From Pseudomonadota bacterium (lineage in GTDB: Bacteria; Pseudomonadota; Gammaproteobacteria; Ga0077536), in NCBI GenBank assembly GCA_018668255.1, contig JABISZ010000072.1, positions 1 to 64,000 on the forward strand: a stretch of DNA of 64,000 bases, written 5' to 3'. Below the pieces are notes generated by a model. The model was not told the origin of the DNA and ran no database searches. It saw only the letters and a program-made list of their open reading frames with translations. Made by a program: the position numbers and the translations under genes. Shown piece after piece: positions 5,780 to 37,196 of this stretch (the first letter of the stretch is position 1; every line of letters starts with the position of its first letter).

Positions 5780-5812
5780 TTTATTAAAAGTATCAAATAC
5801 GGAGTAAGTAGA

Positions 5813-6313: not shown

Positions 6314-6372
6314 GCGTTTTTAATTAAGGAATTTAATTTATCTAAGTTCATTTGCTTAAGGGGAGCAAGGTA

Positions 6373-7398
6373 ATGCGATTTGGGATAATGTATGATTTTA
6401 GAAACCCACAAAGATGGCATATACCGTCGGCACGGTTTTATCGAGCGATGCTCGACCAGATGGTCGAGGCAGAGAGAATAGGCTTCGACCATGTTTGGTT
6501 AACTGAACATCATTTCACCGAAGATGGCTACAACCCTTCATCCTTATCTATGGCTGCTGCTGTTGCGGCGGTAACTTCACAAATCAGGATAGGCACTTTC
6601 ATACTGCTATTGCCTTTTATTCATCCTGTCAGGGCCGCAGAAGATGTTATCTTGGCGGATATTATTTCTGATGGCCGATTTGATTTAGGAGTTGGTCAAG
6701 GCTATACCCATGATGAATTCAATGCATTTTGTATAGACCGTAAGGAAAGAGCACCGAGGCTTTCCGAAGGTATTGAATTGATGACGAAGCTCTTCACAGA
6801 GAATAACGTCACTTTTAATGGGAAGTACCACCAAGTGTCTAATATGACATTATCCCCCAAAGCCATTCAAGCGCCTCACCCACCGCTGTGGATCGGAGCT
6901 CGCGGCCCTAAAGCCATCAGGCGAGCAGCGGAAATGGGGGCTAACCTGATGACTACGCTGGGGCCAGATCCGGCGCCATTGTATATAGATACGCTTAAAG
7001 AGCTCGGGAAAGATCCTGCCAACTTTAAAATTGCGCAACTCAGGATGGTTTATTGTGCCGATTCTGAAGATCAGGCTTGGGAAGATATTCAACATCACTT
7101 AGCCCATGTTTTCGGCTATTACGAAGCTGTGCTGAAAGAAGCTGGTGATGTTGAGGGTGATGAGCTGTCTATGCCATACAATTCCCCAGAAGAGATCCGA
7201 GACTCTGTTTTGGCGGAGACTGCAATCATGGCGGGCACAGTTGAGCAAGTGGCAGACAAGATGTCTGACTTTAAAAAGAATTTCGAATGCACAGATTTCA
7301 TCCTTTCGAGCCACTTTGCTGGGATTGATCCTAGGAAAAGTTCCTATTCAAACGCACTTTTCGCAAAACATGTGATGCCTAAATTTAAAGCCTCCTAG
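6373..7398 (+). CDS. LLM-class flavin-dependent monooxygenase (paralogue of 1185-2225)
   Basis: A 341-residue luciferase-like monooxygenase. The ATG at 6373 follows AAGGGGAGCAAGG closely and gives the family N-terminus MRFGIMYDFRNP; an upstream TTG at 6352 is less likely. Seen: WLTEHHFTEDGY, IRIGTFILLLP, DGRFDLGVGQGY and WIGARGPKA. It resembles the minus-strand LLM at 1185-2225 along its whole length, so the two are paralogues on the outer sides of one cluster. Last gene of the aminotransferase/LLM/SDR/PEBP/LLM unit. Cofactor (FMNH2 or F420H2) and substrate are not determinable from sequence. Confidence 0.93.
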   Translation: MRFGIMYDFRNPQRWHIPSARFYRAMLDQMVEAERIGFDHVWLTEHHFTEDGYNPSSLSMAAAVAAVTSQIRIGTFILLLPFIHPVRAAEDVILADIISDGRFDLGVGQGYTHDEFNAFCIDRKERAPRLSEGIELMTKLFTENNVTFNGKYHQVSNMTLSPKAIQAPHPPLWIGARGPKAIRRAAEMGANLMTTLGPDPAPLYIDTLKELGKDPANFKIAQLRMVYCADSEDQAWEDIQHHLAHVFGYYEAVLKEAGDVEGDELSMPYNSPEEIRDSVLAETAIMAGTVEQVADKMSDFKKNFECTDFILSSHFAGIDPRKSSYSNALFAKHVMPKFKAS

Positions 7399-20342: not shown

Positions 20343-20611
20343 ATGTTATCTCAAGTATCGGCTAATAGTCACCAATGTCGAGCCGAAGCGGCCGAGTTGC
20401 TCATTGACTTGCGTGCACAGTCTGAATTTACTTATTCTGGCGAGGCTGTTGGCTTTGCAAGAGTCGCTTCGCTTGCTATGTGTGAGCGACTGGCCGGTGA
20501 AAAAGTATAAATAAGATTGCAATAGAGGAACTGACAGCATCTGCGGGAACCGAAGATACTTTTCTAGGTATCCCCGTTGGTAGCTCTGAGCGTAATGTAG
20601 GTCATCAGTGA
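20343..20611 (+). pseudogene. Small gene split by a one-base frameshift (about 89 residues when joined)
   Basis: An ATG at 20343 opens a 55-codon frame (MLSQVSANSHQCRAEAAELL ... ARVASLAMCERLAGEKV, stop at 20508-20510). Coding-like sequence continues in another frame (SINKIAIEELTASAG ... FLGIPVGSSERNVGHQ) to a TGA at 20609-20611. The two join smoothly if one A is added to the run of five As at 20501-20505. I do not recognise the family. It could be a decayed gene, a sequencing or assembly error in a homopolymer, or a slippery-site frameshift. It lies in an otherwise empty 450-base gap between the porin terminator and the VOC gene. No strong ribosome site is visible. Confidence 0.5.
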
Positions 20612-20632: not shown

Positions 20633-21322
20633 CTAACTATCTGGCGTTGGGGTAATGCCAGTAAGTGAAGCTCGAGCCGAAATCTCAATCCAGTTCCCAT
20701 CAGGATCTGTGACGAACCCATATCGAGCGATCTTTCCTATTGTACGAGGATTTTGAGTAATCAAACCGCCCTTTTCTTTGATAGCGGCACACTCTAAATC
20801 CGCATCATAGATCTGGACCGTAAGATATCGGAAGTTTGGTCCGACAAAACTGTCCGTTTTATAGCCAGCATGGCCTTTTGTTACGAACAGGATGGTGTCG
20901 CCACATTGCAGAGTGTTAGTTGCGACGAGATCAAAACCCATAACCTCAGTGTAAAAATTCACCATATTTCTTGGGTTGCTCGTAGAAATTTCGATCCCGA
21001 TCCCGACTATACCATCAGTCCCAGGAGTAACGAGTGATACAAAGTCACCGCCAGGGTGTTTAAGCAGTTGATTAGGTAGGTTGGCGCTCGCAATTTTCAG
21101 ATGCTTATATCCAGAGGCGGGTTCGTTTTGGAATGGCTTAGCGTGATGGTTCACTTTTATCACTGAACCATGAGCATCATATCTGTGCTGTGTTATGTCT
21201 TTGTTGAACTTGAGTTCATGATCGAGCTTAAGTCCTACTGTCTTACTCCAAAAGTTGTGATGGCTATCAATATCATTAGTGAAAAGCCCAATATCTAAAT
21301 GATTTTTTGCTAGTCTGAGCAT
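20633..21322 (-). CDS. VOC-superfamily (glyoxalase/extradiol dioxygenase fold) protein
   Basis: A 229-residue vicinal-oxygen-chelate protein with two modules: an N-terminal one (HLDIGLFTNDIDSHHNFW) and a C-terminal one (GIGIEISTSNPRNMVNFYTEVMGF ... GFVTDPDGNWIEIS). The C-terminal DPDGNWIE segment is the typical metal-binding last strand. Members include glyoxalases, dioxygenases and epimerases, so the reaction is unsettled. Last gene of the six-gene minus operon 26259-20633, 20 bases after the kinase-like gene. Confidence 0.85.
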   Translation of the reverse strand: MLRLAKNHLDIGLFTNDIDSHHNFWSKTVGLKLDHELKFNKDITQHRYDAHGSVIKVNHHAKPFQNEPASGYKHLKIASANLPNQLLKHPGGDFVSLVTPGTDGIVGIGIEISTSNPRNMVNFYTEVMGFDLVATNTLQCGDTILFVTKGHAGYKTDSFVGPNFRYLTVQIYDADLECAAIKEKGGLITQNPRTIGKIARYGFVTDPDGNWIEISARASLTGITPTPDS

Positions 21323-21342
21323 CTGTTCTGCCTTTACGTTTC

Positions 21343-22410
21343 TTAAAGTAAATCCATAGCGCCATTATCAAGTGCTTGGTACGCGCCATCAGTCACCATT
21401 TTTATGAACAGGCGGTCTCCTCGATCTGACCGCTTCACGATGACTGCCGCAGCAATAGCTACAGCCAATACCGCAAAGCTGTAGTGCATGTAATCATTCT
21501 TGAGCTGACTTAGTGCATAGTTTGAGACTCCTTCCGCTAAGAGCGTCTGATGGTATTCGCGGAGGAGATCATGTTCTACTGCTTGTCTGGTGTCTCTGTT
21601 AAATGCACTGCCTATAAAATACGCAACATCCATACCTGTCGAGAGGTAATTACTTGTTTGCCAATCAACCACGGCGACTTGTTTTTCACTGAATAGCATG
21701 TTGTCGACGCGGAAATCATTATGTGAAAAGCACTTTGGACCACTTCGAGGTTGATTCCATTTTTCGTGAGAGGCCACGTATTGGTCACACACCTCTATCA
21801 CTTTGGCATCCATTTGGCTTCCATGAGTGGCCCGAAAATAATCCCATGAGCTGTGTATTAGATCAGTCGTATAAAAGCCTTGAGCACCATCAGGAACATA
21901 TAGCCAGTCTTGCTTTTCCAATAAGTGATCATTCCAAAACGCAGCGTGTAAGAAAGCAGCCTCTTTCATTGCCAGTCGAGCATCATTGACAGAACAGCCA
22001 GCCATATGGTCGCCGGCAGTCGCCGGTGCAAGATCTTCGAGTAAAAGAACAAAGTTGTTCTCTTGATCTATTTCAGCTGCGTAGCATTTAGGGGTCTTTG
22101 TTTTTGTTCTATCTGCAAGCTCCCTATAGAACATCACCTCTCCACGATAGAATCCCATATCTTTTCCAGTTGTAGCCGCGACCGCACTGTTGGAAGGGAA
22201 CTTGCCGACAAGTGTTTTTGGGTGCTCAAGAGATTTATCGCCATTGTACTCGATGATAAATCGTCTTGTTTCTCCAAGTTGGCCGGTACCCACTTTCTCA
22301 ACCGAAAAGCTTTTGATCTCCGCTTTAATACCAGAGTTTGATAATGCTTGCTCAAGCCATTCAATAGTGACCTCATTTGGGCCGAAGACCTGTAGCTTGT
22401 TTGCAATCAT
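21343..22410 (-). CDS. APH/EcKinase-like phosphotransferase
   Basis: A 355-residue kinase-fold protein of the aminoglycoside-phosphotransferase superfamily (ecdysteroid-kinase-like branch often found in lipid and xenobiotic operons). Seen: ATP-lobe strands with LVGKFPS, the catalytic loop SHNDFRVDN (HxDxxxxN) and the metal-binding VDWQTSN. The ATG at 22410 has GGAAG six bases upstream and is preferred over a TTG at 22431. In actinobacterial and marine proteobacterial operons such proteins may phosphorylate an alcohol of the catabolic substrate; that is inference. It lies 24 bases after an LLM gene and 20 before the VOC gene. Confidence 0.87.
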   Translation of the reverse strand: MIANKLQVFGPNEVTIEWLEQALSNSGIKAEIKSFSVEKVGTGQLGETRRFIIEYNGDKSLEHPKTLVGKFPSNSAVAATTGKDMGFYRGEVMFYRELADRTKTKTPKCYAAEIDQENNFVLLLEDLAPATAGDHMAGCSVNDARLAMKEAAFLHAAFWNDHLLEKQDWLYVPDGAQGFYTTDLIHSSWDYFRATHGSQMDAKVIEVCDQYVASHEKWNQPRSGPKCFSHNDFRVDNMLFSEKQVAVVDWQTSNYLSTGMDVAYFIGSAFNRDTRQAVEHDLLREYHQTLLAEGVSNYALSQLKNDYMHYSFAVLAVAIAAAVIVKRSDRGDRLFIKMVTDGAYQALDNGAMDLL

Positions 22411-22434
22411 AATTTGCTTCCGATGAGCCAAGAT

Positions 22435-23508
22435 TTAGAGTTTAGCTATAACCTCATTACCAAACTCTCTTATAATATTTCTTGCATCAGTGCCACATAC
22501 ATTGAGTGCAAGATTAGTGATTCCCGCATCTTCAAGTTCTTTAACGCGGTCAATTATCTCGGCTGGCGAACCTGTCAAAGTGGCAAGTTTTATTAACTCT
22601 GGGGTTAGATACTCCGCCTCGCCTTTTTGCAGTTTAGTAAGGTGTCCGGCATGCATCTCCTGATATCGCTTGCTCATAGGGGTTTTCATCTTCATGATGC
22701 GCTGGGTGTAATATTTTTTTGCTAATCCGGCTACTTCGGGAGGCGCAAACGGCCCTGGCATCATTTTTTTCGGATCCCAGTTTGTGTGTAATAGAAGTAT
22801 CGCTGACGGCCCAACTTGTCTAATAACTCTTGGCGACATAATGTCTTCACCCGGTCTCAGTACACACCCACTTGTCAGATTTGTTGTATATAGAGACCTC
22901 ATGTTCCGGCCGTGATTTTTTGCAGCTGCTTTTATCTGCGCGATCCCGGCTTTTATGTATTCTGGGTTCAATCCTATCGTTACCCAGCCATCGGCAAGCT
23001 CACCGACCATATCGTTTGCCTTAGGACCATTGGACGCCATATATAATGGAATCCCGTCACGTACATTAATATAGCCTTCATTACGGTTTAAAAAACGGAT
23101 GTCGCGCTCTATGGTGCCCTCGATATAGCGAGCTTCCTGTCCTTTAAGTAATTTTTTTATGACCTCGATTTCATGACGCATCGTTTTAAGTTTTGCAGGA
23201 GGCATGCCCATTACGTTCCTACCCGTGAAACCAGAACCTACCCCCAATATGACTCTTCCAGGAGCAAGTTCGTTAATGGTGGCGATTGAATGAGCGGTCA
23301 CTGGCGCGATACGATTTCCCAGTATTGAAACAAGAGTGCCAAGTTTTATATAACGACTGTGTTCCGCAGCCAGTGCCATTGTCGCGTATACATCGCTGTA
23401 GCACATTTGGGAGTCATAGAACCATGCATGGGTGAATCCATAGTCTTCCGCCATTTTTACGTCATGGTAAGCCCTAATATAGCTGGGGAAAGTAATTCCA
23501 AAATCCAT
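22435..23508 (-). CDS. LLM-class oxidoreductase (F420/MTHMPT-reductase-like branch)
   Basis: A 357-residue luciferase-like protein, more like the 5,10-methylenetetrahydromethanopterin-reductase / F420-dependent branch than the RutA branch: MDFGITFPSYIR, YGFTHAWFYDSQ, IKLGTLVSI, GRVILGVGSGFTG, PLYMASNGPKA. The cofactor is therefore less certain (FMN or F420), and no F420-biosynthesis gene is in the window. AAGGAT precedes the ATG. It lies 14 bases after the SRPBCC gene in the six-gene operon. Substrate unknown. Confidence 0.9.
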   Translation of the reverse strand: MDFGITFPSYIRAYHDVKMAEDYGFTHAWFYDSQMCYSDVYATMALAAEHSRYIKLGTLVSILGNRIAPVTAHSIATINELAPGRVILGVGSGFTGRNVMGMPPAKLKTMRHEIEVIKKLLKGQEARYIEGTIERDIRFLNRNEGYINVRDGIPLYMASNGPKANDMVGELADGWVTIGLNPEYIKAGIAQIKAAAKNHGRNMRSLYTTNLTSGCVLRPGEDIMSPRVIRQVGPSAILLLHTNWDPKKMMPGPFAPPEVAGLAKKYYTQRIMKMKTPMSKRYQEMHAGHLTKLQKGEAEYLTPELIKLATLTGSPAEIIDRVKELEDAGITNLALNVCGTDARNIIREFGNEVIAKL

Positions 23509-23522
23509 TTTTTATCCTTCTA

Positions 23523-23963
23523 TTATTGATTTTCTGAAAGCATGAGCTGTTCTACATTATCTAAAGCTAAGTTATATAGTCCGTTAAATGCGACGACAAG
23601 CTCCGCTTCATCTAATTCTGTATCCCAGGTACTCTCCCAGGTCACCTCGCAAGAATCTTTTGAGATCGCTTTAACAGACATTCGCGCAAGATAGTTAGTT
23701 ATTGGGATGGGGTTGTCTCCAACAACGCAATAACTGAAAGACATTTTATGTAAATCGAACGTTTCTAGTCTTTCCGATATTCTGCCAGGGAAACCAGTTT
23801 CTGGTGCAAGATCTGCACTTCGTAGCGAGCCTATGCCGGATCCTTCTACTACGACCGGACCTACTCCAGGTATCCATTTATCCGTACCCCCCCAGTTAGA
23901 CACAAATTCCCAAGCTTTACTCGCTGGAACAGGCATGGCTTTTGTAGCGGTGACATGAGGCAT
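23523..23963 (-). CDS. SRPBCC (START/Bet v1-like) family protein
   Basis: A 146-residue SRPBCC-fold protein, related to polyketide cyclase/dehydrase-like proteins that bind hydrophobic ligands in a deep pocket. Seen: VTATKAMPVPASKAWEFVSNWG at the N-terminus, VEGSGIGSLRSADL, SFSYCVVGDNPIPI and a long C-terminal helix. AAAGGAA precedes the ATG. It lies between Fe-ADH and an LLM in one operon and may bind or cyclise a pathway intermediate. No catalytic residues can be assigned. Confidence 0.88.
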   Translation of the reverse strand: MPHVTATKAMPVPASKAWEFVSNWGGTDKWIPGVGPVVVEGSGIGSLRSADLAPETGFPGRISERLETFDLHKMSFSYCVVGDNPIPITNYLARMSVKAISKDSCEVTWESTWDTELDEAELVVAFNGLYNLALDNVEQLMLSENQ

Positions 23964-24020
23964 ATCGGTTCCTTTATGTTAATTACAGATGCATAAAGAT
24001 ATTACCTAATGAGCACACTT

Positions 24021-25163
24021 TTACCAAGCGTCCTCAAGTAAGTTAAGAATATCTGCGGATGTCCCCAAAAATCTAGGGTTAGTTGCAATCCAGATATCGA
24101 GCATGGATTCTTCTGCAAGCTTGGGTAGCAAGTCCTTAGGTACCCCCGCATCCCTTAGCCGGCCCGGTAATTCAAGTTCTGAGACTAGTGATTGCACCTG
24201 ATCGGCCAAAGGATGATTAAGATTGCCCATCGCAGCAGCTAATATTGCTTGGCGATCGGCATTCGTTGAACTGTTGTATCGGAGAACATGCGGGAGCATG
24301 ACACACGACGTTTCCCCGTGGGGCATCCCGGCCGTACCACCTAAAATATGACCAATGCCATGACTTGCTCCTAGATCTACCCCGTTAGCCACACCTTGTA
24401 TGGAGAGCCATGAGCCAACTAAGCATTCTAAGCGGCTCATTTTGTCACTTGGGTCAGCTTTACATTTAGGTAGTGCGCTGGCTAACAGGTTTAGGCCATG
24501 AAGAGAGCTAGCTTCCACTAATGGATTAGCGTTTATAGAGCAATATGTTTCTATCGCATGGTCAACCGCTCTTACACCCGTGCCAAAGAATAGTCGGTCT
24601 GGTGTGACACTCGTCATTTCCGGATCTAAGATGACTACATTGGGAACCATTCCATTGTGGAAAAACAGTTCTTTCCTCGGTATCGTTTCATCGGTAATTC
24701 CAGCGAAGCCGGTATACTCGCCAGCGGACAATGTCGTAGGTATTGCGATGTGTTTAATTTTTGGAGAATTTAGCTCATCGGATGCTAATTGGCCAATGCC
24801 ATTCTTTGAACTCACTCCATTTTCGAGCGCTAGACAGGCAACTTTGGTAGTGTCGCAAACAGAGCCTCCACCTAAAGTAACGACAATATTCGCACGTTTT
24901 TCCTTTAGTTCTTTTGCAAGTGTAATGACATCTTGGCGTGGTGAGTGAGCTTTGAGTCCTTTGACTTCGCCAACACATACTTTGCCTAACGCTTTTTTTA
25001 CGATGCCTGCTAGTCCGCCAATCTTTGTGAGACTAGTATTAGTTACAAACATCACCATTGGATCCGACGTATCACCGATCGCTTGGTTAAGTGCCTCAAT
25101 TAACTCCTTGCCGTAGATTACTTCCTGTATCGCACCTGTTTTGTAGTGGCCTTTGAAATTCAT
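24021..25163 (-). CDS. Iron-containing alcohol dehydrogenase (maleylacetate-reductase-like)
   Basis: A 380-residue group III (iron-type) dehydrogenase. Seen: nucleotide loop LGGGSVCDTTK, AIPTTLSAGEYTGFAG (as in maleylacetate reductases), metal ligands in VRAVDHAIETY, HGIGHILGG and MPHGETS. Maleylacetate reductases reduce maleylacetate from hydroxyquinol or chlorocatechol routes, while other members oxidise alcohols. The resemblance is suggestive, but no ring-cleavage dioxygenase for that route is adjacent. AAGGAG lies before the ATG. Second gene of the operon, 19 bases after the RutA-like LLM. Confidence 0.9.
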   Translation of the reverse strand: MNFKGHYKTGAIQEVIYGKELIEALNQAIGDTSDPMVMFVTNTSLTKIGGLAGIVKKALGKVCVGEVKGLKAHSPRQDVITLAKELKEKRANIVVTLGGGSVCDTTKVACLALENGVSSKNGIGQLASDELNSPKIKHIAIPTTLSAGEYTGFAGITDETIPRKELFFHNGMVPNVVILDPEMTSVTPDRLFFGTGVRAVDHAIETYCSINANPLVEASSLHGLNLLASALPKCKADPSDKMSRLECLVGSWLSIQGVANGVDLGASHGIGHILGGTAGMPHGETSCVMLPHVLRYNSSTNADRQAILAAAMGNLNHPLADQVQSLVSELELPGRLRDAGVPKDLLPKLAEESMLDIWIATNPRFLGTSADILNLLEDAW

Positions 25164-25182
25164 ACGTCTTCTACTCCTTAGT

Positions 25183-26259
25183 CTAGCTTAATTTGCTGAT
25201 GACGCCCATCTCATACAATAGAGGCATTATTTCTTTTCTAAATCTTATCGTATCCTGCAGATATGCTTGAAATATCATAAGTACTCCTTTTAACCCTGCA
25301 TCATGCATAGTTTTTATCTTTGTTGCGACTTGTTCAGCAGTGCCAATGACATGAACAGCGCCCGCCCCTACCGTCATCATGTCTAGTGTGAATTGATCAA
25401 ACGATCCACTGCCGATTGCTAGCCCATCTAGCCAATTTTGGGCCGCAACTTCATCTTTTTGAGCAATAATTTTCTCCAACTCATTTTGAGCTTCGTCTTC
25501 GGAATCACGCCATAGAACAAACGGGAAAGCGGCACATTCGACTTGTTTTTGTTTTTTGGCTGCTCGCAGAGAGATATCCTCCACAATCGAGGAAATCGCC
25601 TCAACGGTTGGTGTAGAGATAAAGGCCCAGTCGCATAAGCTAGTGGTCATTTCCTTCGCATCTTCGGATGTGCCAGCATTCGCTATTTCAGGCATCCGTT
25701 TCGGCTGAGGCAAGCAGTATCCGTCTTTGACGTCATACCAAGCTGAGTGGTGATTAAAAGTGCCTGGTGTATCTGCCCATAAACCCTTCAGAATTTCTAT
25801 AAATGCAGCAGTTCTCTGGTAGCGCTCTTCATGCGGCAGGAGTTTAACTCCCATCATTCCAAATTCCTTTTCACTCCACCCGCTTACTAAATTTACTCCC
25901 CATCTACCCCGGCTGATGTGATCTAGAGTCGCTCCCATTTTTGCGACTACTACCGGATTAAAGACCGGGACGTGCACGGTCGAGAAAATTTTGATTTTAG
26001 AAGTGACGGCCAATAACGCTGCGGCCCATGTCATCGTTTCTAATGAAGTCCCTAGATAATCTGTCTCCCCTCCAAATCCGCGCCATCGGCTGACGGGAAA
26101 CAAGAGCTCAAAACCTGCGCTTTCGGCAGCAAGCGCTATACTTTTATTCGACTCGTAAGGCCACTCATCTTCAACTATCCGATAAGTTGAGATTGCAGAC
26201 ATGTTCGAGCAATTTGGCATGAACAATCCGAGTTTCAAATAATCTTCAATTGACGACAA
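25183..26259 (-). CDS. RutA-like LLM flavin monooxygenase
   Basis: A 358-residue luciferase-like monooxygenase in the same branch as the one at 3843-4988. They share the first strand ending PNCSN, the GRWGVNLVSGW segment (SGGRFALNIVCGW in the other) and SRWRGFGG. The start is TTG at 26259, nine bases after AGGA; the first internal ATG would cut into the first beta strand. First gene of the six-gene minus operon. Predicted FMNH2-dependent oxygenation that initiates breakdown of an unknown substrate. A reductase supplying FMNH2 is not encoded nearby. Confidence 0.9.
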   Translation of the reverse strand: MSSIEDYLKLGLFMPNCSNMSAISTYRIVEDEWPYESNKSIALAAESAGFELLFPVSRWRGFGGETDYLGTSLETMTWAAALLAVTSKIKIFSTVHVPVFNPVVVAKMGATLDHISRGRWGVNLVSGWSEKEFGMMGVKLLPHEERYQRTAAFIEILKGLWADTPGTFNHHSAWYDVKDGYCLPQPKRMPEIANAGTSEDAKEMTTSLCDWAFISTPTVEAISSIVEDISLRAAKKQKQVECAAFPFVLWRDSEDEAQNELEKIIAQKDEVAAQNWLDGLAIGSGSFDQFTLDMMTVGAGAVHVIGTAEQVATKIKTMHDAGLKGVLMIFQAYLQDTIRFRKEIMPLLYEMGVISKLS

Positions 26260-26486
26260 TTTTTAATTCCTTTCTCTCAACAGCCTTGGGAGTATTAAAT
26301 TTCTGCACTAACAGCTAAGAATATATCGCGGTTTCTAAGTTTTCGGGTTAAGTATCTAGCTAGTGTTTTAGTATCCGCTTCTTGCGGTAATATACAGAAC
26401 ATATTCTAACTATAAACAATTTATTGAGTGCAAAAACGTTTAAATCACGATAGGTTGAAATATCTTTAAGTCGGGGAGCGTAAATT

Positions 26487-27692
26487 ATGTTGATGCTTGA
26501 GGGAGTGAAGGTGCTAGACCTTACCCAGTATCTGGCAGGACCAACGGTAGGAAGACTAATGGCTGAGATGGGTGCTGAGATTTACAAAGTAGAAATCGGT
26601 CCAAGTGGCGATCCCTCCAGAGGACTTCCTATTACTGAAGATGGGCGGAGCGGTTATTTTATCCAGCAGAATAGAGGAAAAAAAAGTATCGGGCTTGACC
26701 TGCGAAATCCAGAGAGTGTTGGCATACTTCATGATTTAATTCGAAAGGTAGATGTCATAGTTGAGAACTTTGGTCCAGGAGTGATGGAGAAAAAATCACT
26801 TGCTTGGTCAGATGTGCAGAAAATAAACCCTGAAGTAGTCATGGCTTCCATTTCTGCTTATGGCAGAGAAAGTCCTTTGTCTCATAAAACTGGATTTGAT
26901 TGGGCTGCGCAGGCATTTTCTGGACTTATGCATATGAATGGAGAGCGCGACGGCCCACCATTACCCGTCGGCATAGGTATCGCAGATGTTGGAAGTGGGG
27001 TACACGCTTTCTCCGCAATCGGTTATGCCTTGTTTCATCGGTCTCGGACCGGGAGAGGTCAGTGGCTAGATATTAGTATGGTGGATGCGATGTTTCATAA
27101 CCACGATATCTCTTTGCAGGGCTACTCGCTTACAGATGGTAAGTTTAGGCCGCACCGTCAAGGTGCTCACCATGAGTTAATAGCACCTTTTGGAACTTTT
27201 AAAGGTCCTTCGGGGTATATTGTGATTTTAACGCTTCAGCCTCAATGGAAGAACGTATGTGTTGCTATTGGTCGACCTGATCTAGAATTAGACCCTCGGT
27301 ATCGTGAGCCAAAGGATAGAGGGGCTAGGCAGGATGAAATTATCGACATAATTGAGGCATGGATGGCAACTTACCCGGACAATGAGACTATCCTTAATCA
27401 TTTAGATGAACATCGGGTGCCCACTGCCCCGGTTATGGATCCCGTTGATGCGATCAATCATCCTTATTTCAGGGAGCGAGGTATGATCAAGGAAATTGAT
27501 GACCCCGTTATGGGTAAGCTTACAATCCCAGGTTTCCCTCTTAGGTTCTCGGACCAGCCTGAAAGGCTCGAGCTAGTAGCACCTACTTTGGGCCAACATA
27601 ATCAAGAAATTCTTGAACAGGTTTTAGATTATTCCGAAGAAAAAATAAACGAGCTTAAGGCGTCCGGAGTATTAGTTTCTGGTCCTCGCTAA
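26487..27692 (+). CDS. CaiB/BaiF family class III CoA-transferase
   Basis: A 401-residue class III CoA-transferase that moves CoA between carboxylic acids through an aspartyl-CoA intermediate. Seen: the N-terminus LEGVKVLDLTQYLAGPTVGR, AEIYKVE, the conserved ENFGPGVME, and the probable catalytic Asp in ISMVDAMFHN. GGGGAG lies eight bases upstream of the ATG. It leads an operon with an amidase (29 bases on) and HyuA. It diverges from the LLM operon. Likely activates the acid left after C-N bond cleavage; donor and acceptor unknown. Confidence 0.93.
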   Translation: MLMLEGVKVLDLTQYLAGPTVGRLMAEMGAEIYKVEIGPSGDPSRGLPITEDGRSGYFIQQNRGKKSIGLDLRNPESVGILHDLIRKVDVIVENFGPGVMEKKSLAWSDVQKINPEVVMASISAYGRESPLSHKTGFDWAAQAFSGLMHMNGERDGPPLPVGIGIADVGSGVHAFSAIGYALFHRSRTGRGQWLDISMVDAMFHNHDISLQGYSLTDGKFRPHRQGAHHELIAPFGTFKGPSGYIVILTLQPQWKNVCVAIGRPDLELDPRYREPKDRGARQDEIIDIIEAWMATYPDNETILNHLDEHRVPTAPVMDPVDAINHPYFRERGMIKEIDDPVMGKLTIPGFPLRFSDQPERLELVAPTLGQHNQEILEQVLDYSEEKINELKASGVLVSGPR

Positions 27693-27721: not shown

Positions 27722-29143
27722 ATGCATGAGATTTTAAAGTGTTCGATGATCGAGCAAGCCAGATTAGTGAAGACGGGAAAAGTATCCCCTCGCGAGTTAC
27801 TCGAAGCAGCTATAGAGCGCATTGAAGCCGTGAATCCTCAATTGAACGCGGTTGTCCTTCCCATGTACGCTTTAGCTGAAAAAGCCTTGTCTGAGCTAAA
27901 AGGTAGTGAACCTTATGCGGGAGTTCCGATGCTCCTCAAAGACGTTTTAGCTGAGTATGCCGGTTCTCCAATGACAGAGGGATCACGCTTCCTGCAAGGA
28001 TATGTCTCGTCTCGAGATTCTGAGTTGGTTCGACGTTATCGTACCGCTGGTTTCATCGTATGTGGTAAAACTAATTCTCCTGAATTTGCATCAATGCCTA
28101 CGACAGAGCCAGAGTTATATGGCCCTACAAAAAACCCTTGGGACCTTTCCCGGTCGCCGGGAGGTTCCTCTGGAGGGTCAGCTGCAGCAGTAGCTTCCGG
28201 AATGGTTTCTGTCGCACATGCAAATGACGGTGGCGGATCGACTCGTGTGCCGGCATCGGCTTGTGGTTTGGTTGGTTTGAAAGGGACTCGAGGACGGAAC
28301 CCCATGGGACCGGATTATGGTGAGATTGGGGCTGCTGGTTTATTATCTGAGCATGTAGTCACCAGAACGGTTGCAGATAGCGCTGCGATGCTAGATGTGA
28401 CAGCCGGATCAGATTTAGGAGCTCCATTTGGGTCTCCTCCTAAGCCAAAGTCTTTTTTGGATCTTGTGAACAGAGCACCTAGAAAGCTGCGAATAGCATT
28501 TTCTGATCAACCTGTCTTAAGTACTCCGGTGCATAGCGATTGTGTGACCGCCGTGCACGATATAGCAGCCCTTTGTGAAGAATTAGGACATGATGTCGTG
28601 GAAGCGAAGCCTGAGGTAGATGCGGAGCATTTCAACCAATTTTTCTCTACTATTTGGTTAGCGATGGTTGGTTGGATGATACGCGATTGGGAGCGTCGTC
28701 TTGGCCGAAAAGCGGAACCTGAATTTTTTGAGAGACATACATGGAAAATGTACTTATTAGATATGGAAAGGCGTCCTTCTGATCTACTACTTGCGATTCA
28801 CGACATGCATAAGTTTGGACGTGATGTTGCTCCCTTTTTTGAAGAACATGACGTATGGCTGACGCCAACATTGACTGAGCCTCCTCCATTACTAGGACAT
28901 TTTGATTTCGATCCTAAGAATCGCCGACAAGCCACTGAAAGGTTAGAGCAATTTCCACGATTTACATCTTTTGCAAATGTCACAGGGCAACCTGCTATTT
29001 CTTTGCCGCTGCACTGGAGTAATACTAGCCTCCCAATTGGTGTCCAGTTTATTGGTCGCTATGCGGATGAGGGGACTTTATTTCAGTTGGCAGGTCAATT
29101 AGAGGAAAGTCGCCCTTGGGCTCACCGTTGGCCGCAGATATAA
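27722..29143 (+). CDS. Amidase (amidase-signature family)
   Basis: A 473-residue amidase-signature hydrolase with a Ser-cisSer-Lys triad. Seen: Lys in MLLKDV, the Gly/Ser-rich stretch [18 protein letters not shown], and [20 protein letters not shown] containing the nucleophilic Ser. It cleaves a carboxamide to acid and ammonia or amine. It lies between CaiB/BaiF and HyuA, 29 and 10 bases away. Specificity cannot be read; the family also covers aryl-acylamidases and Glu-tRNA amidotransferase A, but a gatCAB context is absent. Confidence 0.93.
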
Positions 29144-29153: not shown

Positions 29154-31196
29154 ATGACTGAGAAGAAGATTGTTAGTATCGATGTAGGCGGCACGTTTAC
29201 TGATGCCCTCGTTGTAGCCGCCGATGGTGCAATCTGCGCGCATAAATTCAATAACAGTAACAAGTTACAGATCAAGAAATTTCTGCAGCAGCACGAAGAC
29301 TCTACTACTACTTTTCTATATAGCACTACCGCCGCTGTGAACGCGCTTCTAACAGGAGATTTTCCGAATGTAGGTCTGGTTGTTAACGAAGGCTTTCGCG
29401 GATTACTTGAAACGGCACGCTTGCCTGAAAGAGCGGGAAAAGACAAAGGTAGCCAGCTTCCAAGGAGGCTTGTACCTTCAGAGTTTGTGAGAGAGGTGAG
29501 TTGTAGAGTGGGTGCTGATGGCACAGTGAGTAGATTAATCAATCCAGAACAAGTAAAGAATGTCGCGGCAGAGTTTAGAGGTTTGGCTGTAAAGCGTGTT
29601 GTTATATCGCTTTTGCATAGCTATCAATTCCCCGAGCAGGAGGCGGCAATAGCGGCATTATTTGCTGTCTACGCGCCAGATATAGAAGTTATTGTTTCAA
29701 GCGATGTTTTGTCTGAATCTAGGGAATATGAGCGCACCATTGCCGCTGTCTTAAGTGCCTGCTTAGGTCCTGTATTAGAGGAGAATTTAGAGTCTATTTT
29801 AGGCCCTAATAGCGACAGTAAGAATATTTTGGTTATGCAAGGTAACGGAGGGCTTGCCAGTGCTCAGTCAGCTTTAGAGCACCCATTGACAACAATTTTT
29901 TCAGGCCCAGTAGCTGCAGTTTCTGGGATGGCTTGGTTGGCAAGCTTAGCCGGATACGAAAACCTTATTACCTTTGACGTAGGGGGTACCTCTACTGACG
30001 TTTCTCTCATTCAAGACGGTAAATACCAGACGTTTCCAGCGACGGAGATTGCGGGTTTTCCTCTAAGGATCCCGATGGTAGATGTACTCTCGATAGGGGC
30101 AGGAGGAGGATCGATCGCTTTTGAAGCAGCGGATAAACGCTGGCATGTAGGCCCTAATAGTGCCGGTGCAGAGCCTGGGCCTGCATGCTATGGGCTTGGC
30201 GGTACAGAGCCGACGCTCACCGATGCCAACTTAATTCTGGGTCGGATCCCTAAGGGCTTGCTTGGCGGTGAAATGATATTAGACGAAGACGCCAGCTTAT
30301 CTGTGCTTACTAACTTTGGCTTAACAAGAGGTCTTAGTCCTGAAGCTGCAGCTATAGGGATGTTAGAAATAGCGATCAACTCAATGTGTGGGGCTATTAG
30401 ACGGGTATCAGTTCTACGAGGGAGAGAAGCTGCTAGTCTCACTCTTGTTGCGATGGGTGGTGCGGGTCCAATATTCGCAGCAGAGGTGGCCGAGCTTATA
30501 GGTATTACGACTGTGGTAGTTCCACCTGATCCTAGTTTAGCTGCAGCATGGGGAGTTTATGTCGCCGACATCACCCGTGATTTTTCACTTGCATTCGAGT
30601 ACCTCGCAGATACTGTCTGTTCCGAAGAACTGGAGTCAGGATTTATGGAATTGGAGAAAAAATCCTCAATCTGGATTGAGACAGAACTTCTTAAATTTAG
30701 TGACTGCAAGGTAGTTAGGAAGCTGGATCTAAAATATGAAGGGATGACACATGGGACGACTGTTGATTTTAAATTAGGTAGCAATATTAAAAATAGCTTG
30801 GAGGAGGCCGTTGAATTATTCCATCACAGGCATGCTGAACTAACAGGCCATCTTTGGAAGGAGCATGAGAGAGTAGAGATTATTAACTTAAGGTTAGCTA
30901 TCAGCGCCGCCCAGTCAAACTCGTTGCCGTTACCGCAGAAGCCAGCGAAGCAAATTAATGCTAACAATTCAGCACTCAAGCGAATATTTTTTCACGGCGG
31001 GTTTGGCTCTATTGAGAGCCAAGTGTATCAGCGGAAAAATTTGCCTTCATCTTTTTTCATTGTTGGTCCGGCACTTATTGAACAAGAAAGCGCGACCATT
31101 GTCTTGCCTCCTAACTGGAACGCCAGCACAGATGAAAGCGGGAATTTAATACTTAGATCGCACCAACCAGACTCAGAGATGTTGCCCATCGTTTAG
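29154..31196 (+). CDS. Hydantoinase/oxoprolinase subunit A, not paired with a B subunit
   Basis: A 680-residue HyuA-family ATPase-fold protein. Seen: N-terminal nucleotide loop SIDVGGTFTDA, FDVGGTSTDVSLI, GAGGGSIAF and EPGPACYGLGG, all typical of hydantoinase A / 5-oxoprolinase. These couple ATP hydrolysis to opening of cyclic amides or, with other partners, to carboxylation. No B subunit follows it; the only HyuB in the window belongs beside the second HyuA at 33090. It starts ten bases after the amidase stop. It is convergent with the acyl-CoA synthetase. Confidence 0.92.
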   Translation: MTEKKIVSIDVGGTFTDALVVAADGAICAHKFNNSNKLQIKKFLQQHEDSTTTFLYSTTAAVNALLTGDFPNVGLVVNEGFRGLLETARLPERAGKDKGSQLPRRLVPSEFVREVSCRVGADGTVSRLINPEQVKNVAAEFRGLAVKRVVISLLHSYQFPEQEAAIAALFAVYAPDIEVIVSSDVLSESREYERTIAAVLSACLGPVLEENLESILGPNSDSKNILVMQGNGGLASAQSALEHPLTTIFSGPVAAVSGMAWLASLAGYENLITFDVGGTSTDVSLIQDGKYQTFPATEIAGFPLRIPMVDVLSIGAGGGSIAFEAADKRWHVGPNSAGAEPGPACYGLGGTEPTLTDANLILGRIPKGLLGGEMILDEDASLSVLTNFGLTRGLSPEAAAIGMLEIAINSMCGAIRRVSVLRGREAASLTLVAMGGAGPIFAAEVAELIGITTVVVPPDPSLAAAWGVYVADITRDFSLAFEYLADTVCSEELESGFMELEKKSSIWIETELLKFSDCKVVRKLDLKYEGMTHGTTVDFKLGSNIKNSLEEAVELFHHRHAELTGHLWKEHERVEIINLRLAISAAQSNSLPLPQKPAKQINANNSALKRIFFHGGFGSIESQVYQRKNLPSSFFIVGPALIEQESATIVLPPNWNASTDESGNLILRSHQPDSEMLPIV

Positions 31197-31241
31197 TGGT
31201 AACTTTCTTGCATCTTTCGGCCTCCTGAAAATCAGCAGCAA

Positions 31242-31255
31242 AGCGTCGCGACGCT
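31242..31255. repeat. 14-base perfect palindrome between convergent genes
   Basis: AGCGTCGCGACGCT reads the same on both strands. It lies between the convergent HyuA and acyl-CoA synthetase genes and includes part of the latter's stop codon. It has no T-run, so it is not a normal terminator, although it could form a cruciform or be chance. Confidence 0.4.
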
Positions 31256-32870
31256 ACCCTAGAATATCCACAGCTTGCTTTCTTAGCTTCGCTTTCTGTA
31301 CTTTCCCGGAAGAGGTCATTGGAAATTCCTGCACAAAAATAATATGCCGGGGTATTTTGAAGCTAGCAATTTTACCTTTTAAAAACCCGGTAATCTCGTC
31401 CGGAGCAAGCATGATATCGCTTTTTAATATCGTAAATGCTACGCCTACCTCATGCAGGCGTTCGTCTGGATAAGCAACTACCGACGTTGCTTGAATCCCA
31501 GGAATTTTCATTAGGTGTGCTTCTACTTCTGCAGGAGAGACATTTTCTCCGCCTACCTTAAGCATATCTTTGTATCTGCCTAAAAAAATTAAACGACCAT
31601 CTTCCCGGACCTTTGCGGTGTCACCTGTTTTAAACCAACCATCCTCAGTAAAGCTTTCTGCAGTAGCTTTGGGTTTTTTATAATAGCCTTGCATTAGAGT
31701 ATAACCTTTCACTCTGAGCTCACCCAATTCATCTGGTTGCACTGTGATACCACTATCGGGGTTGACTACTTTGAAACTAATGTCGCTCATGGGGTAGCCA
31801 GATGCATAGATTCTTTGCTCGCGTGTGTCGGTTGGGAATGAGAGAGCTGCAAATGCCCAAATCTCTGTCATGCCAAACCCAGATACCGTAGGGCAGAAGA
31901 CATCTTGAGCCAATTCGGCAACAGGGATAGTTGCTTCGGTTCCCGCCGGCAAAGTTCCTAATCGGAGTGTTGAAACATCCGCTTGTAGGCTTCTTTGTGC
32001 GTCCAGTAAATCTTTCCAGTGAGTATCAAACCCATGGGCTAAAGTCACCTTCTCTTTTTCGATTAGGGTAAGGGCTTTGCCAGCATCAAAGTTTTCCATT
32101 AAGATCTGTTTTGCTCCTGTTAGAGCGCATATCATCATTATTTCTGACAATGCATAGATGTGGAACATAGGTAGATAATTGATATGAATATCCGTAAAAG
32201 TAATTCCAAGAATCGAGGCTCTTTCCATACAGTTTCGAATGTTGGTATGGTTGTGCATCACTCCTTTGGGATCGCCCGTAGTACCTGATGTATAACCTAT
32301 CAGCATTAGATCATCTGGTGCTACTTGTGACTCACGTTCTTGGAGCTGTTCGTCTGTGATTTTTTCTCCAGAGGATAGAACTTCCGTCCATAAGCTTGTA
32401 TCACCGTAATGCTCTGTACCTACGAAAACAATTCTGCGGAGGTCTGGAAATTCACTGATCCCATCTTTAAGAGACTCAGGGTTTGGTATGACTTCTTTGA
32501 TCATTTCTAGGTAGTTTACTGGACCGGATCTATCGTCTGATAAAAGTGTTCCAGTGTTGGATTGAGAGAGTACATATCTTATGTCATCGCTACGATACCG
32601 GGTATTTAGGGGCACTAAGACTCCACCGACTTTGGCAACCGCATACATCAAGAAAAGCCACTCTGGTTTGTTATTCATCCAAAGGGCAACTTTCTCTCCA
32701 GGTTCTACGCCCAGAGAGATCAGACCTTTAGCTGCAGCCGAAACACCGGCTTCAAACTCCAACCATGTCCACCTGTTTTCTCCAAAAACTAGTGCTTCAC
32801 GGTTTCCCCATTTTTTCGCTGCTTCTTTAGAAGTTTCGCCTAACGTTCTTTTTTCGAACCATTCTGACAT
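31254..32870 (-). CDS. Acyl-CoA synthetase (AMP-binding family)
   Basis: A 538-residue adenylate-forming ligase that activates a carboxylic acid to acyl-AMP and then acyl-CoA. Seen: the phosphate loop IGYTSGTTGDPKG, FGMTEIW, a GWFKTGDTAKV segment and the C-terminal catalytic Lys in SSGKVQKAKLR. The length fits medium- or long-chain and aryl-CoA ligases. It is single on its strand, flanked by HyuA genes on the other strand. The acid is unknown; context suggests the product of ring opening or amide cleavage. Confidence 0.93.
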   Translation of the reverse strand: MSEWFEKRTLGETSKEAAKKWGNREALVFGENRWTWLEFEAGVSAAAKGLISLGVEPGEKVALWMNNKPEWLFLMYAVAKVGGVLVPLNTRYRSDDIRYVLSQSNTGTLLSDDRSGPVNYLEMIKEVIPNPESLKDGISEFPDLRRIVFVGTEHYGDTSLWTEVLSSGEKITDEQLQERESQVAPDDLMLIGYTSGTTGDPKGVMHNHTNIRNCMERASILGITFTDIHINYLPMFHIYALSEIMMICALTGAKQILMENFDAGKALTLIEKEKVTLAHGFDTHWKDLLDAQRSLQADVSTLRLGTLPAGTEATIPVAELAQDVFCPTVSGFGMTEIWAFAALSFPTDTREQRIYASGYPMSDISFKVVNPDSGITVQPDELGELRVKGYTLMQGYYKKPKATAESFTEDGWFKTGDTAKVREDGRLIFLGRYKDMLKVGGENVSPAEVEAHLMKIPGIQATSVVAYPDERLHEVGVAFTILKSDIMLAPDEITGFLKGKIASFKIPRHIIFVQEFPMTSSGKVQKAKLRKQAVDILG

Positions 32871-33089
32871 TTTTTATTGCCCTTTCGTTGTTCTTGACTA
32901 ATTGTGGATAACAGGCATGGTTCTATTTTTAGCTGATCGTTGTCAACTACCACGCTTTAAGAGTTTTTCAGTACTTGCCGAGAGTCTTTTTGCACGGCAT
33001 TATAAGTAAGTATCTGTCGATGTTTCTAGCTTTGTCTGTTTGGCCGAAGTATAGAGTCGATCGTGGTCACGAAAACAGGGGAGCAAGCT

Positions 33090-35156
33090 ATGGCTTGGCG
33101 GCTAGCAGTAGATATCGGTGGAACTTTTACTGATGTGGTGGCATTGGAGGAAGGCTCTGGCGAAGTGCACCTTATGAAAGTTCCCACCACTCCGGGAGAT
33201 CCATCGCGTGGATTTATCCAAGGGATAGAAAAAATTACTGAACTTGGTGGTGTTTCGTCGAGTGACGTCGCCGCGGTTTTTCACGGCACTACGGTCGCAA
33301 CCAATGCAATACTTCAAAGACGCTATTCTAAAATTGGTTTGGTGACTACTATCGGTTATCGTGAGCAACTAGAAGTTGCTAGGCAAACAGTCCCAGGAGA
33401 ATTCGGAGATATAACTTGGTGGGTGAAGCCAGAGAGAGTCGTGCCTTTAGAACTCGTAAGAGAAGTCACTGGTCGAATCAATGTTGAAGGAAAACAGCTA
33501 ACGCCGATTAACAGGGATGAAGTTCGAGCAGTGGCTCTCGAGTTTCGTAGGCTTGGAGTTTCTGCGATTGCTGTATCGTTACTTCATTCTTATCGCGACC
33601 CTTCTCATGAGCGACAGGTGAGGGAATTTATTAGAGAGGTTTACCCTGAGTGCTTCATCTCCATTTCTTCTGATATATTGCGAGAGTATCGAGAATACGA
33701 AAGAACTAATACCACTTGCCTGAATACAGCATTGATGCCTCTATTATCAAATTATCATGAAAAATTGAGCGCCGAGTTAGCCGATAAAAAAATAACTGCG
33801 CCTTTTTATATTATGAGATCAAGCGGGGGACTCGCTAAAGCGGAGGAGATCTCTCGTCAACCAATTACAGCTGCGTTATCTGGCCCTGCCGCAGGAGTTA
33901 TAGCTGCCTGTCACTTTGGAAAGCTGAGCGGATTTGAGGATGTAATATGTTTTGATGTTGGGGGTACATCGGCTGATATCTGTCTCGTGGAAGGAGGTCA
34001 GCCAAGGATGCTAACAGAGGGGCGAGTAGACATTTATGATGTGAAAACCCCAATGATCGATATGCACACAGTTGGCGCTGGTGGAGGCTCTATCGCTTGG
34101 TTAGCTGGTGGGCGGAGTTTGAAAGTGGGGCCTGAGAGTGCAGGAGCCTTGCCAGGGCCTGCATGCTATGGGCGTGGCGGGGAGTTACCTACTGTTACTG
34201 ATGCTAACGCAGTTTTGGGTCGTTTAACGACTGCCTTAGCGGGGGGTGATGTGAGCCTAGATTATGCAAGATCTGAAGGTGCTATCAAAACGATTGCAGG
34301 ACCCCTTGGCCTTAACTTGACGGATGCTGCTGATGGAATACTTCGGATTGCTATAGAAAATATGGCGGCCGGGATCAGGACAGTTTCAGTGAAACGAGGG
34401 AGAGATCCACGAGACTACGCTCTGATTGCATTTGGAGGCGCTGGACCTTTGCATGCATGCTACTTGGCTGATTGGTTAGGGATGAAAAAAGTGGTGATTC
34501 CTCCTAGTCCTGGAGTTACCTCAGCTTATGGGTTATTACTAACTGATGTAAGAATTGATGCTGTTCACACAGCGGTGCAGCGAGAAGACAAATTTAGCGC
34601 AGCTGCTATTGAGCAGCATTTTTTGGAGCTACAGACCAGAGTAAAAGATAACCTTTTCAGCGAAGGTTTCAACTCGGATAATATTGAGCTGCAGCACTTT
34701 GTCGATATGCGATATGGAGGTCAGGCCTATGAAGTAAGGCTACCTTTTCTAAACGATATAAGTTCTACAGAAGATAAATTACAACAAGCCATCAGTGACT
34801 TTCATAGTTCTCACCAGGACTTGTATGGCTATTCCTATGAAGGTAGAGAGCTTGTGGAGCTCGTGAATGTGGGTGTCACAGGTCTAGGTTTGTTAGAAAG
34901 ACCCAAAATTCGGAAACAGAAAATTGCCGGAAAATCACCTGAACAGGCGATGCGTGGAAAATCTCGAGTCTACTTCCCGCAAACCCAAGGGCGTGTCGAG
35001 TGCCCTATTTTTTCCCGAGAGTTACTAGTGGCAGGCAATGAGATTATAGGCCCAGCAATTATAGAACAATACGATTCGACTACGGTTCTTAACCCAGATT
35101 GGGTGGCGCGATTAGATGAATGGGGATGTCTAGTTTTAAGTCGTCACGAAGACTAG
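33090..35156 (+). CDS. hyuA: Hydantoinase/N-methylhydantoinase subunit A
   Basis: A 688-residue HyuA-family protein. The ATG at 33090 follows AGGGGAG by six bases; an upstream GTG at 33063 is unlikely. Seen: AVDIGGTFTDVV, FDVGGTSADICLV, GAGGGSIAWLAGG and LPGPACYGRGG. It is followed after 18 bases by hyuB, which makes the ATP-dependent A/B pair that opens cyclic imides, hydantoins or oxoproline-like lactams. It is about as long as, and homologous to, the orphan HyuA at 29154. The exact substrate is not predictable because this family also includes acetophenone- and acetone-carboxylase-like members. Confidence 0.93.
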   Translation: MAWRLAVDIGGTFTDVVALEEGSGEVHLMKVPTTPGDPSRGFIQGIEKITELGGVSSSDVAAVFHGTTVATNAILQRRYSKIGLVTTIGYREQLEVARQTVPGEFGDITWWVKPERVVPLELVREVTGRINVEGKQLTPINRDEVRAVALEFRRLGVSAIAVSLLHSYRDPSHERQVREFIREVYPECFISISSDILREYREYERTNTTCLNTALMPLLSNYHEKLSAELADKKITAPFYIMRSSGGLAKAEEISRQPITAALSGPAAGVIAACHFGKLSGFEDVICFDVGGTSADICLVEGGQPRMLTEGRVDIYDVKTPMIDMHTVGAGGGSIAWLAGGRSLKVGPESAGALPGPACYGRGGELPTVTDANAVLGRLTTALAGGDVSLDYARSEGAIKTIAGPLGLNLTDAADGILRIAIENMAAGIRTVSVKRGRDPRDYALIAFGGAGPLHACYLADWLGMKKVVIPPSPGVTSAYGLLLTDVRIDAVHTAVQREDKFSAAAIEQHFLELQTRVKDNLFSEGFNSDNIELQHFVDMRYGGQAYEVRLPFLNDISSTEDKLQQAISDFHSSHQDLYGYSYEGRELVELVNVGVTGLGLLERPKIRKQKIAGKSPEQAMRGKSRVYFPQTQGRVECPIFSRELLVAGNEIIGPAIIEQYDSTTVLNPDWVARLDEWGCLVLSRHED

Positions 35157-35174
35157 TTTAGAAGGAGTAATAGC

Positions 35175-37196
35175 ATGGCATCTGAGCCACATCAGCCGCA
35201 GTCTTATTTTGATAAAGAAGACGAGGCGACCGCCTTTACTGACTACGCACCGTTTCGTTACGGTTTGGTAGAAGTAGATTCGTCTTATATCTCTAAAATA
35301 AAAGTAACTCGGGAAACACTCGACCCAATTTTAGTAGATATTGTGGATGGAGGGATAGAAGCCGCGGTCATGGAGGCTGAAGCCGCAGTTGAGCGGACTG
35401 CGCGGTCCACAATTATAAGAGAGCAACATGACTATCGAGCCTCTCTAAATACTCTGGACTGCCTTTCTGTATCAAGAGTTTCATGGGCCGCTACAGCTGA
35501 TCCTATACGGATGAAATTCCCCATAAGTGAAATTAATGAAGGAGATGTTTTTATTTATAATGACGTCTATGAGTCCGCTGGGACGATTGGACATTTACCT
35601 GATTATTGTGTGGTTACTCCAATCTTTGTGCAAGATCGTCTTATCGGATTTGCGCAAATTTTTGGCCACGTAAGTGATGTAGGAGGGCGCATGGCAGGTT
35701 CTTGGCCAAATACCTCTGAAAGTATTTTTGAAGAAGGCACGATGTGCCCACCTGTTAAACTTTATACGGCGGGTATGCTGAATGATGGAATTTACGACAT
35801 TATATTACGAAATTCTCGTTTCCCTGAAGATTTGCGAGGGGATATAGATGCATTTGTGGGCGCAAATGAGATTATTCGTCGTCGTGTCGTCGAGTTGTGT
35901 GAGCGGTTCGGAACTGACGAAGTTGAAGGTGCATTTTATGAAATCATTGAACGTTGCGCGGAAGTCGTGCGTGAAAAAGGGTTGCCTTTTTTCCCAGAGG
36001 GCGAATTCATTGGAGAAGATTTCATTGAGAATGACGGGCTGACACTGGATGAGCCGGTTAAGCTTAAAATTACAATGCGGAAATACAAACATAAGATGGT
36101 GCTTGATTTTGAAGGTACAAGCCCTCAGGCGAAAGGCCCTATTAATTGGCCACTTGATGGTCGACATTACTCCAAATGGCTAGGAGCGTTCTTTAAAGCT
36201 CAAATTCCTGGGATTATCATCAATGAAGGCGTTACTGATGTTTTTCGTTGCCGTATTCCAAAGCGAACGATTCTAAGCTCGGAATTCCCGGCACCTGTCG
36301 TGTCCAGAATGACATGTATGTTGCGGATGATAAGTGCCTATACGGTTGCTCTTGCGAAAGCATTTGATGGTCAAGTTGTCGCTGATATGCAGTGCATACA
36401 AATATACGGGCTCTATGGAACAGACCCGTCAGGGAAACTGTTTCTAATGCGTGAAATATTTGGTGCTGGTTCCGGAGCTCGCCCTCAAGGGGATGGTACT
36501 GATGCAGTTGATTTGGTTCCTTATTCGAAAAATCTTCCAGCCGAGTTTATTGAACAGCGGTTTCCTGTAACAGTAGAGCGGGTTGGCTTGGCTATAGATT
36601 CGGGTGGCCCTGGGAAATATAGAGGAGGGCTTGGATATGTTAAGGAAATTCGAACTTTGGTTGATGGCCACTATACAACAGTGACGGAAAGGACTGCCTT
36701 CTCCTCCATTGGCATAAAAGGTGGTTTGGCCGGTCGGCCGGGTGGCTCTATGAAAAACCCAGATACAGAGGAAGAGGAGAGCGTTTTTTTCAGTCGAGAT
36801 GCGGTCCCTGTAAAAAGAAACGATCTTATTCGTTTGATCACTCCGGGCGGAGGAGGCTGGGGTGATCCGTTAGAGAGAGATGTGGAGCTTGTCAGACTTG
36901 ACGTGCTTAGGCGTCTAGTTTCTACCGAGAGTGCCCACAGAGATTATGGAGTTGTTATCCAGGCAGACACCGGAGACGTCGATCATAAAGCTACGGAGAT
37001 TTTGCGTAGAGATTTTGCGGAGGCGCGGGGACCCACAAAACTTATTAATCGAGGTGCCTATGCTCAGACGCTGATTGAAAAGGGACACATTGCTGTTAGT
37101 GACCCCCATCTAGAAAGTTCTGATTTGGCTAATGATGAGGTCTTGACGCACTACTGGAAAGATTTGTATAAGTACTCTAACAAGCCCAGCGCATAG
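35175..37196 (+). CDS. hyuB: Hydantoinase/N-methylhydantoinase subunit B
   Basis: A 673-residue HyuB-family protein. Seen: a long N-terminal helix-rich part, FGHVSDVGGRMAG, NTSESIFEEGTMCPP, FEGTSPQAKGPINWP and the C-terminal TPGGGGWGDPLERD hallmark of hydantoinase B. It follows hyuA by 18 bases with GAAGGAG before its ATG. It carries about 80 to 100 residues beyond the GGGGWGDP motif. It forms the catalytic pair with the HyuA directly upstream. Confidence 0.94.
   Translation: MASEPHQPQSYFDKEDEATAFTDYAPFRYGLVEVDSSYISKIKVTRETLDPILVDIVDGGIEAAVMEAEAAVERTARSTIIREQHDYRASLNTLDCLSVSRVSWAATADPIRMKFPISEINEGDVFIYNDVYESAGTIGHLPDYCVVTPIFVQDRLIGFAQIFGHVSDVGGRMAGSWPNTSESIFEEGTMCPPVKLYTAGMLNDGIYDIILRNSRFPEDLRGDIDAFVGANEIIRRRVVELCERFGTDEVEGAFYEIIERCAEVVREKGLPFFPEGEFIGEDFIENDGLTLDEPVKLKITMRKYKHKMVLDFEGTSPQAKGPINWPLDGRHYSKWLGAFFKAQIPGIIINEGVTDVFRCRIPKRTILSSEFPAPVVSRMTCMLRMISAYTVALAKAFDGQVVADMQCIQIYGLYGTDPSGKLFLMREIFGAGSGARPQGDGTDAVDLVPYSKNLPAEFIEQRFPVTVERVGLAIDSGGPGKYRGGLGYVKEIRTLVDGHYTTVTERTAFSSIGIKGGLAGRPGGSMKNPDTEEEESVFFSRDAVPVKRNDLIRLITPGGGGWGDPLERDVELVRLDVLRRLVSTESAHRDYGVVIQADTGDVDHKATEILRRDFAEARGPTKLINRGAYAQTLIEKGHIAVSDPHLESSDLANDEVLTHYWKDLYKYSNKPSA

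Follow-up and report, generated by a model that had tools for sequence, protein, structure and literature searches.

The window, a stretch of 64,000 nucleotides, carries a minus-strand run of six genes (20633-26259) and, divergent from it, a set of genes on the plus strand. The features are listed below.

20633..21322, minus strand: VOC-superfamily protein (Pfam Glyoxalase)
21343..22410, minus strand: EcKL/APH-fold kinase (Pfam EcKL)
22435..23508, minus strand: LLM2, Mer-like, probably an F420-dependent oxidoreductase (NCBIfam TIGR03842 and Mer below cut-offs; structure matches)
23523..23963, minus strand: SRPBCC (Polyketide_cyc2) protein of ligand-binding type (Pfam PF10604)
24021..25163, minus strand: Fe-ADH-family oxidoreductase with Arg at the metal-ligand Asp, GVRAVDHAIE (Pfam Fe-ADH/ADH_Fe_C)
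25183..26259, minus strand: LLM1, RutA/SfnG-type luciferase-like monooxygenase, TTG start (NCBIfam, PDB, invariant residues)
26260..26486, no strand: intergenic region separating the divergent LLM1 and CaiB genes; in L011 and L012 it contains a gene for an AgcS-type Na+ symporter
26487..27692, plus strand: CaiB/BaiF family III CoA-transferase, divergent from LLM1 (Pfam CoA_transf_3, 353 bits)
27722..29143, plus strand: amidase, co-directional with CaiB after a 29-bp gap (Pfam Amidase, 318 bits)
29154..31196, plus strand: hydantoinase A/CapA-like protein, 10-bp gap from the amidase (Pfam Hydantoinase_A)

Read from the sequence, the minus-strand run consists of six genuine, closely spaced ORFs, in agreement with the first-pass annotation, which had described an operon-like series of six genes with gaps of 14-57 bases. 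The gaps are 19 bp (LLM1-ADH), 57 bp (ADH-SRPBCC), 14 bp (SRPBCC-LLM2), 24 bp (LLM2-kinase, assuming the kinase ATG at 22410; 3 bp with the upstream TTG at 22431) and 20 bp (kinase-VOC). No ORF is disrupted, dN/dS in a comparison with one close relative is low (0.03-0.26), and a chance series of ORFs is excluded. Profile searches placed the products in Bac_luciferase (two genes), Fe-ADH, Polyketide_cyc2 (SRPBCC), EcKL/APH kinase and Glyoxalase/VOC. A promoter and terminator scan found fewer sites than in shuffled sequence, and an Rfam search gave no match.

LLM1 had been called RutA-like, and RutA and SfnG are its nearest characterised families, although it passed neither curated model, scoring 219.6 bits against a cut-off of 383 for SfnG (NCBIfam TIGR04021) and 170.7 bits against 498 for RutA (NCBIfam TIGR03612). 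The best PDB match was SfnG (8t0u), followed by 3rao and RutA. LLM1 resembles RutA in the LLM fold, the RGFGG-T-LE motif and length, and its T94, N123, W128 and E132, invariant in 27 homologues, correspond to RutA T105/N134/W139/E143 (T, N-x-V-x-G-W, E), which we take to be the residues lining the flavin/O2 site. The conserved residues of the broad RutA/SfnG-type group C LLMs are therefore present. It differs from RutA in reaching only a third of the model cut-off and in its operon; SfnG provides the nearest solved structure and NCBIfam model, but LLM1 has RGFGGET in place of the TAGYGAE of SfnG, and the surrounding genes are different. Group C enzymes of the RutA kind use a flavin-N5-peroxide to break bonds between carbon and a heteroatom (PMC8283759), and by analogy our best guess is that LLM1 is an FMNH2-dependent oxygenase of this cleaving type, placed between RutA and SfnG.

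With RutA and SfnG as the nearest families, LLM1 could be a genuine member of one of them and the operon could serve pyrimidine or dimethylsulfone utilisation. We regard this as very improbable, and both routes were rejected because LLM1 falls far under the two cut-offs. In addition, the neighbours scanned on both sides belong to other families, with no rutB-G-like (rutBCDEFG) or sfn genes identified among them, and the ADH, CaiB and kinase partners are foreign to those systems.

In the LLM1 tree, Halieaceae LLM1 groups with the proteins of three genera (g1, g6 and g7) in a supported clade (100/97). The conserved Halieaceae cluster (L036:2-11044 and other loci) comprises Fe-ADH, TetR, CoA ligase, TonB receptor, P450 and LLM1; a B12-dependent mutase, encoded divergently, is nearest to 2-hydroxyisobutyryl-CoA mutase, has an unusual EHDRNT motif and lies alongside MeaB. 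The P450, CoA ligase and B12 mutase suggest that the LLM1 relatives act on other substrates there.

The Fe-ADH gene had been annotated as maleylacetate-reductase-like. The motif G[VIM]R[AS][VL]DH is found in all LLM1-linked Fe-ADH homologues, indicating that Arg replaces the usual metal-ligand Asp while the three His are kept; the Asp plus three His of a classical metal-dependent Fe-ADH is thus not present in the operon protein. MAR1 (9ph0) has the same Arg for Asp and shares the TLSAxEYT and G-R-AVDHA-E motifs, which is in keeping with this part of the annotation. The PDB score for MAR1 (124 bits), however, was tied with that for lactaldehyde reductase (123 bits), and the operon differs from the MAR1 system in that no ring-cleavage or maleylacetate genes were identified in it. 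A maleylacetate/aromatic route was also considered for the region, and neither a ring-cleavage dioxygenase nor maleylacetate genes were identified nearby. An apparent ADH fusion in L016 and L017 proved to be merely a 5′ extension of the frame.

LLM2 gave 131 bits against a cut-off of 295 for TIGR03842 and 125 against 349 for Mer, passing neither of these curated F420 models. Its structure was modelled with a pLDDT of 70, and F420-dependent enzymes, all of them dehydrogenases or reductases, fill the first 29 places among the Foldseek matches of the model and the first 15 in VIA-align. VIA-align Z was 28 for Mer, 24 for Adf and 23-24 for FGD, and the first FMN-type enzyme appeared at 21.8. Both attributes expected of an F420-dependent LLM, nearest folds among F420 enzymes and F420-biosynthesis genes in the host, are found here, which agrees with the earlier placement of LLM2 in the F420 branch. 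The same structural matches argue against its description as one of two LLM oxygenases: judging from the model, LLM2 is probably not an oxygenase but an F420-dependent oxidoreductase. Identity to Mer, Adf and FGD is about 25%, and the context is not methanogenic, in contrast to the likeness of fold.

For the remaining three genes, Pfam matches bear out the SRPBCC, APH-like kinase and VOC identities given before. The SRPBCC protein is strongly conserved among orthologues and adjoins ADH in UBA981 (L015) as well. The kinase passed the Pfam EcKL model (76.8 bits, cut-off 22) and conserves the catalytic HND...N and D (FSHNDFRVDNM...VVDWQT). In six aligned orthologues the VOC protein keeps an N-terminal His, the His of QHR and the Glu of the C-terminal NWIE; it scored 37.3 bits against a cut-off of 120 for the curated glyoxalase I equivalog and passes only the broad Pfam VOC model. 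Its predicted structure (pLDDT 33) was excluded from the analysis.

Conservation was compared within and outside the genus. The full six-gene order is present in L010, L011, L012 and L013, and L009 keeps the first four genes before its contig ends; protein identity across the six genes is 64-89% (L010 and L012). Because within-genus synteny spans the surrounding ~20 kb, from HyuA33 to g148, the conserved order carries little weight by itself. Beyond the genus it is broken, and hence the gene-order check proposed with the first-pass annotation came out positive within the genus only.

In other genera the six genes separate into units. In UBA981 (L015), LLM1-ADH-SRPBCC is found with a divergent AgcS-CaiB-amidase, and in g7 (L016) a single locus holds LLM1-ADH, AgcS, CaiB and amidase. 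CaiB-amidase-HyuA is divergent from ADH-SSF in g10 (L115 and L117), and SDR-CaiB is divergent from ADH in g4 (L112 and L122). LLM1 and ADH are adjacent in g1, g6 and g7, joined by SRPBCC in g1 and g6; CaiB adjoins ADH in g4 and g10, so that this contact extends to other genera too, and CaiB, amidase, AgcS and LLM1-ADH occur together in g6 and g7. The CaiB-amidase pairing is conserved in four genera. Symporters at the module are AgcS (g1, g6, g7) or SSF (g10); in the window species AgcS is missing at 26260-26486, and the only other AgcS of the genome is 39% identical. The kinase and VOC genes form a tight same-strand pair in 8 of 10 sampled genera (L012, L109, L112, L125, L126, L142, L143 and L144) with varying neighbours, at a spacing of ~11 bp or less, or overlapping, as measured on stop-to-stop frames. 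LLM2 orthologues (65-75%) are solitary outside the genus.

The FeADH-LLM1-CaiB grouping also recurs with diverged copies. L060 (apparently contig C215 of G014, in g10) has CaiB (40%), ADH (37%) and LLM1 (50%) at spacings of 40 and 4 bp, and L067 has ADH (34%) and LLM1 (60%) with CaiB (62%) downstream. Binatia MAGs have LLM2-like (41%), CaiB-like (32%) and LLM1 (59%) genes together. The module can do without LLM1: ADH/CaiB occur with no LLM1 nearby in g4 and g10, and LLM1 in turn occurs apart from ADH and CaiB (e.g. L018, L020 and L029). On this comparative evidence, FeADH-LLM1-CaiB is the best-supported functional core; with the amidase and a Na+ symporter it makes up the best-supported unit, to which the other genes would be attached modules.

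These patterns bear on the proposal that the six genes encode a full linear route for just one substrate, which we consider unlikely. The common strand, the short gaps and the order retained at 64-89% identity in the genus favor it, as do the kinase-VOC pair near CaiB-ADH in G022 and the LLM1, ADH, SRPBCC, kinase and LLM2 orthologues lying within ~52 kb in UBA981. On that UBA981 contig (C17), however, LLM1, ADH and SRPBCC are at 700, 701 and 702 kb, the kinase at 728 kb and LLM2 at 752 kb, and the proximity of these five genes is regional, not operonic. Kinase-VOC is an independent pair in eight genera, LLM2 stands alone elsewhere, and the genes with the closest ties to the core, for the CoA-transferase and the amidase, do not belong to the six-gene run. 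Since the six genes split into LLM1-ADH-SRPBCC, LLM2 and kinase-VOC, and CaiB, amidase and symporter fall outside, the complete one-substrate route suggested earlier is not established.

An alternative view, that compaction brought unrelated genes together in a small genome, where they are read through and only LLM1-ADH-CaiB share a pathway, is likewise unlikely. The genome is 2.3 Mb, whereas most other members of the family have 3-6 Mb and carry the genes apart; the modules are separate in other genera, and LLM pairs are common through density. Nevertheless, the order is retained across diverged species of the genus, the spacing is operon-like, and regional proximity is present already in UBA981.

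The genome of the window (2.30 Mb, 98% complete) belongs to a marine bacterium related to uncultured Gammaproteobacteria/Proteobacteria represented by MAGs and SAGs (UBA4457, AG-390-I23, UBA981 and others). It contains 55 LLM (PF00296) genes, several of which fall in the window (1-7398 and 20633-26259), and 15 close LLM pairs (≤3.5 kb), compared with 4.5 expected from uniform placement. For this reason, two LLMs in one operon are unremarkable here. Flavin monooxygenase paralogue expansions are described for SAR202 (PMC6946804, PMC5395668), which is likewise marine, with comparable LLM density, but belongs to Chloroflexota, not Gammaproteobacteria. One proposal is that such LLM expansions enable bacteria of the ocean to oxidise recalcitrant dissolved organic matter (PMC6946804). 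A search for CofD found it in the host genome and in each of 15 further genomes of the family, but in only one of nine genomes from elsewhere in the class, and a CofG/H-type ORF (814 aa, over the cut-off) is present in the host, where contig G000:C51 carries F420 genes. These F420 genes suggest that some members of an apparent "monooxygenase" expansion may in fact be dehydrogenases that depend on F420. The genome has two flavin reductases, both outside the six-gene operon. The window also holds three Baeyer-Villiger-type flavin monooxygenases (8414-10015, 38124-39710 and 39901-41505).

Gene content and order, the module boundaries and the recurrence of the core are observed directly in these genomes, and the operon likely represents known kinds of parts in an uncharacterised combination. 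We give an even chance to the reading that it is a genus-specific composite catabolic operon, in which three older modules were joined, with LLM1 and the Arg-type Fe-ADH as core and the divergent CaiB-amidase as partner; the six genes would then be co-transcribed. The amidase, the hydantoinase-like genes and the amino-acid-type symporter weakly suggest a small solute containing N, such as an amide or lactam, as substrate class. Such a solute would enter the cell through a Na+ symporter, which in relatives is AgcS, and LLM1, with O2 and FMNH2 supplied by one of the two flavin reductases encoded elsewhere, would break a bond between carbon and a heteroatom in the manner of RutA/SfnG. The Fe-ADH could interconvert the resulting alcohol and carbonyl with NAD(P)H, the amidase could hydrolyse amide intermediates, and CaiB would load the acid onto CoA for entry into central metabolism, while SRPBCC may serve as a binder or carrier of an intermediate. 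LLM2, presumably by F420-dependent hydride transfer, and kinase-VOC would be older separate units that were attached in a compact genome and co-expressed, perhaps to deal with side products or with substrates of a related kind.

A bolder proposal, which we consider quite unlikely, is that LLM1, Arg-type Fe-ADH and CaiB form an undescribed oxygenolytic core (flavin-peroxide cleavage, redox, CoA transfer) recruited in several lineages, and that in this compact marine genus, with its F420-biosynthesis genes, an F420-dependent reductase and kinase-VOC were coupled to it, giving a new pathway that acts on some recalcitrant compound containing N. Paper searches on the catabolism of homarine or trigonelline, on ring cleavage by an LLM alongside an amidase, on an LLM found with 2-hydroxyisobutyryl-CoA mutase, and on MAR1 yielded no name for the substrate. 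LLM paralogues are hard to assign to substrates, and the conserved partners (Fe-ADH, CaiB, amidase and Na+ symporter) provide a testable pathway context for one LLM subfamily.

Near the operon, the interval 29154-37196 contains two genes of HyuA-like and one of HyuB-like type, which resemble caprolactamase or acetophenone carboxylase, below cut-offs. On the other side, a small gene that is intact between VOC and porin in L010-L012 survives in the window only as a decayed remnant at positions 20350-20500, with 40% identity over 47 aa.
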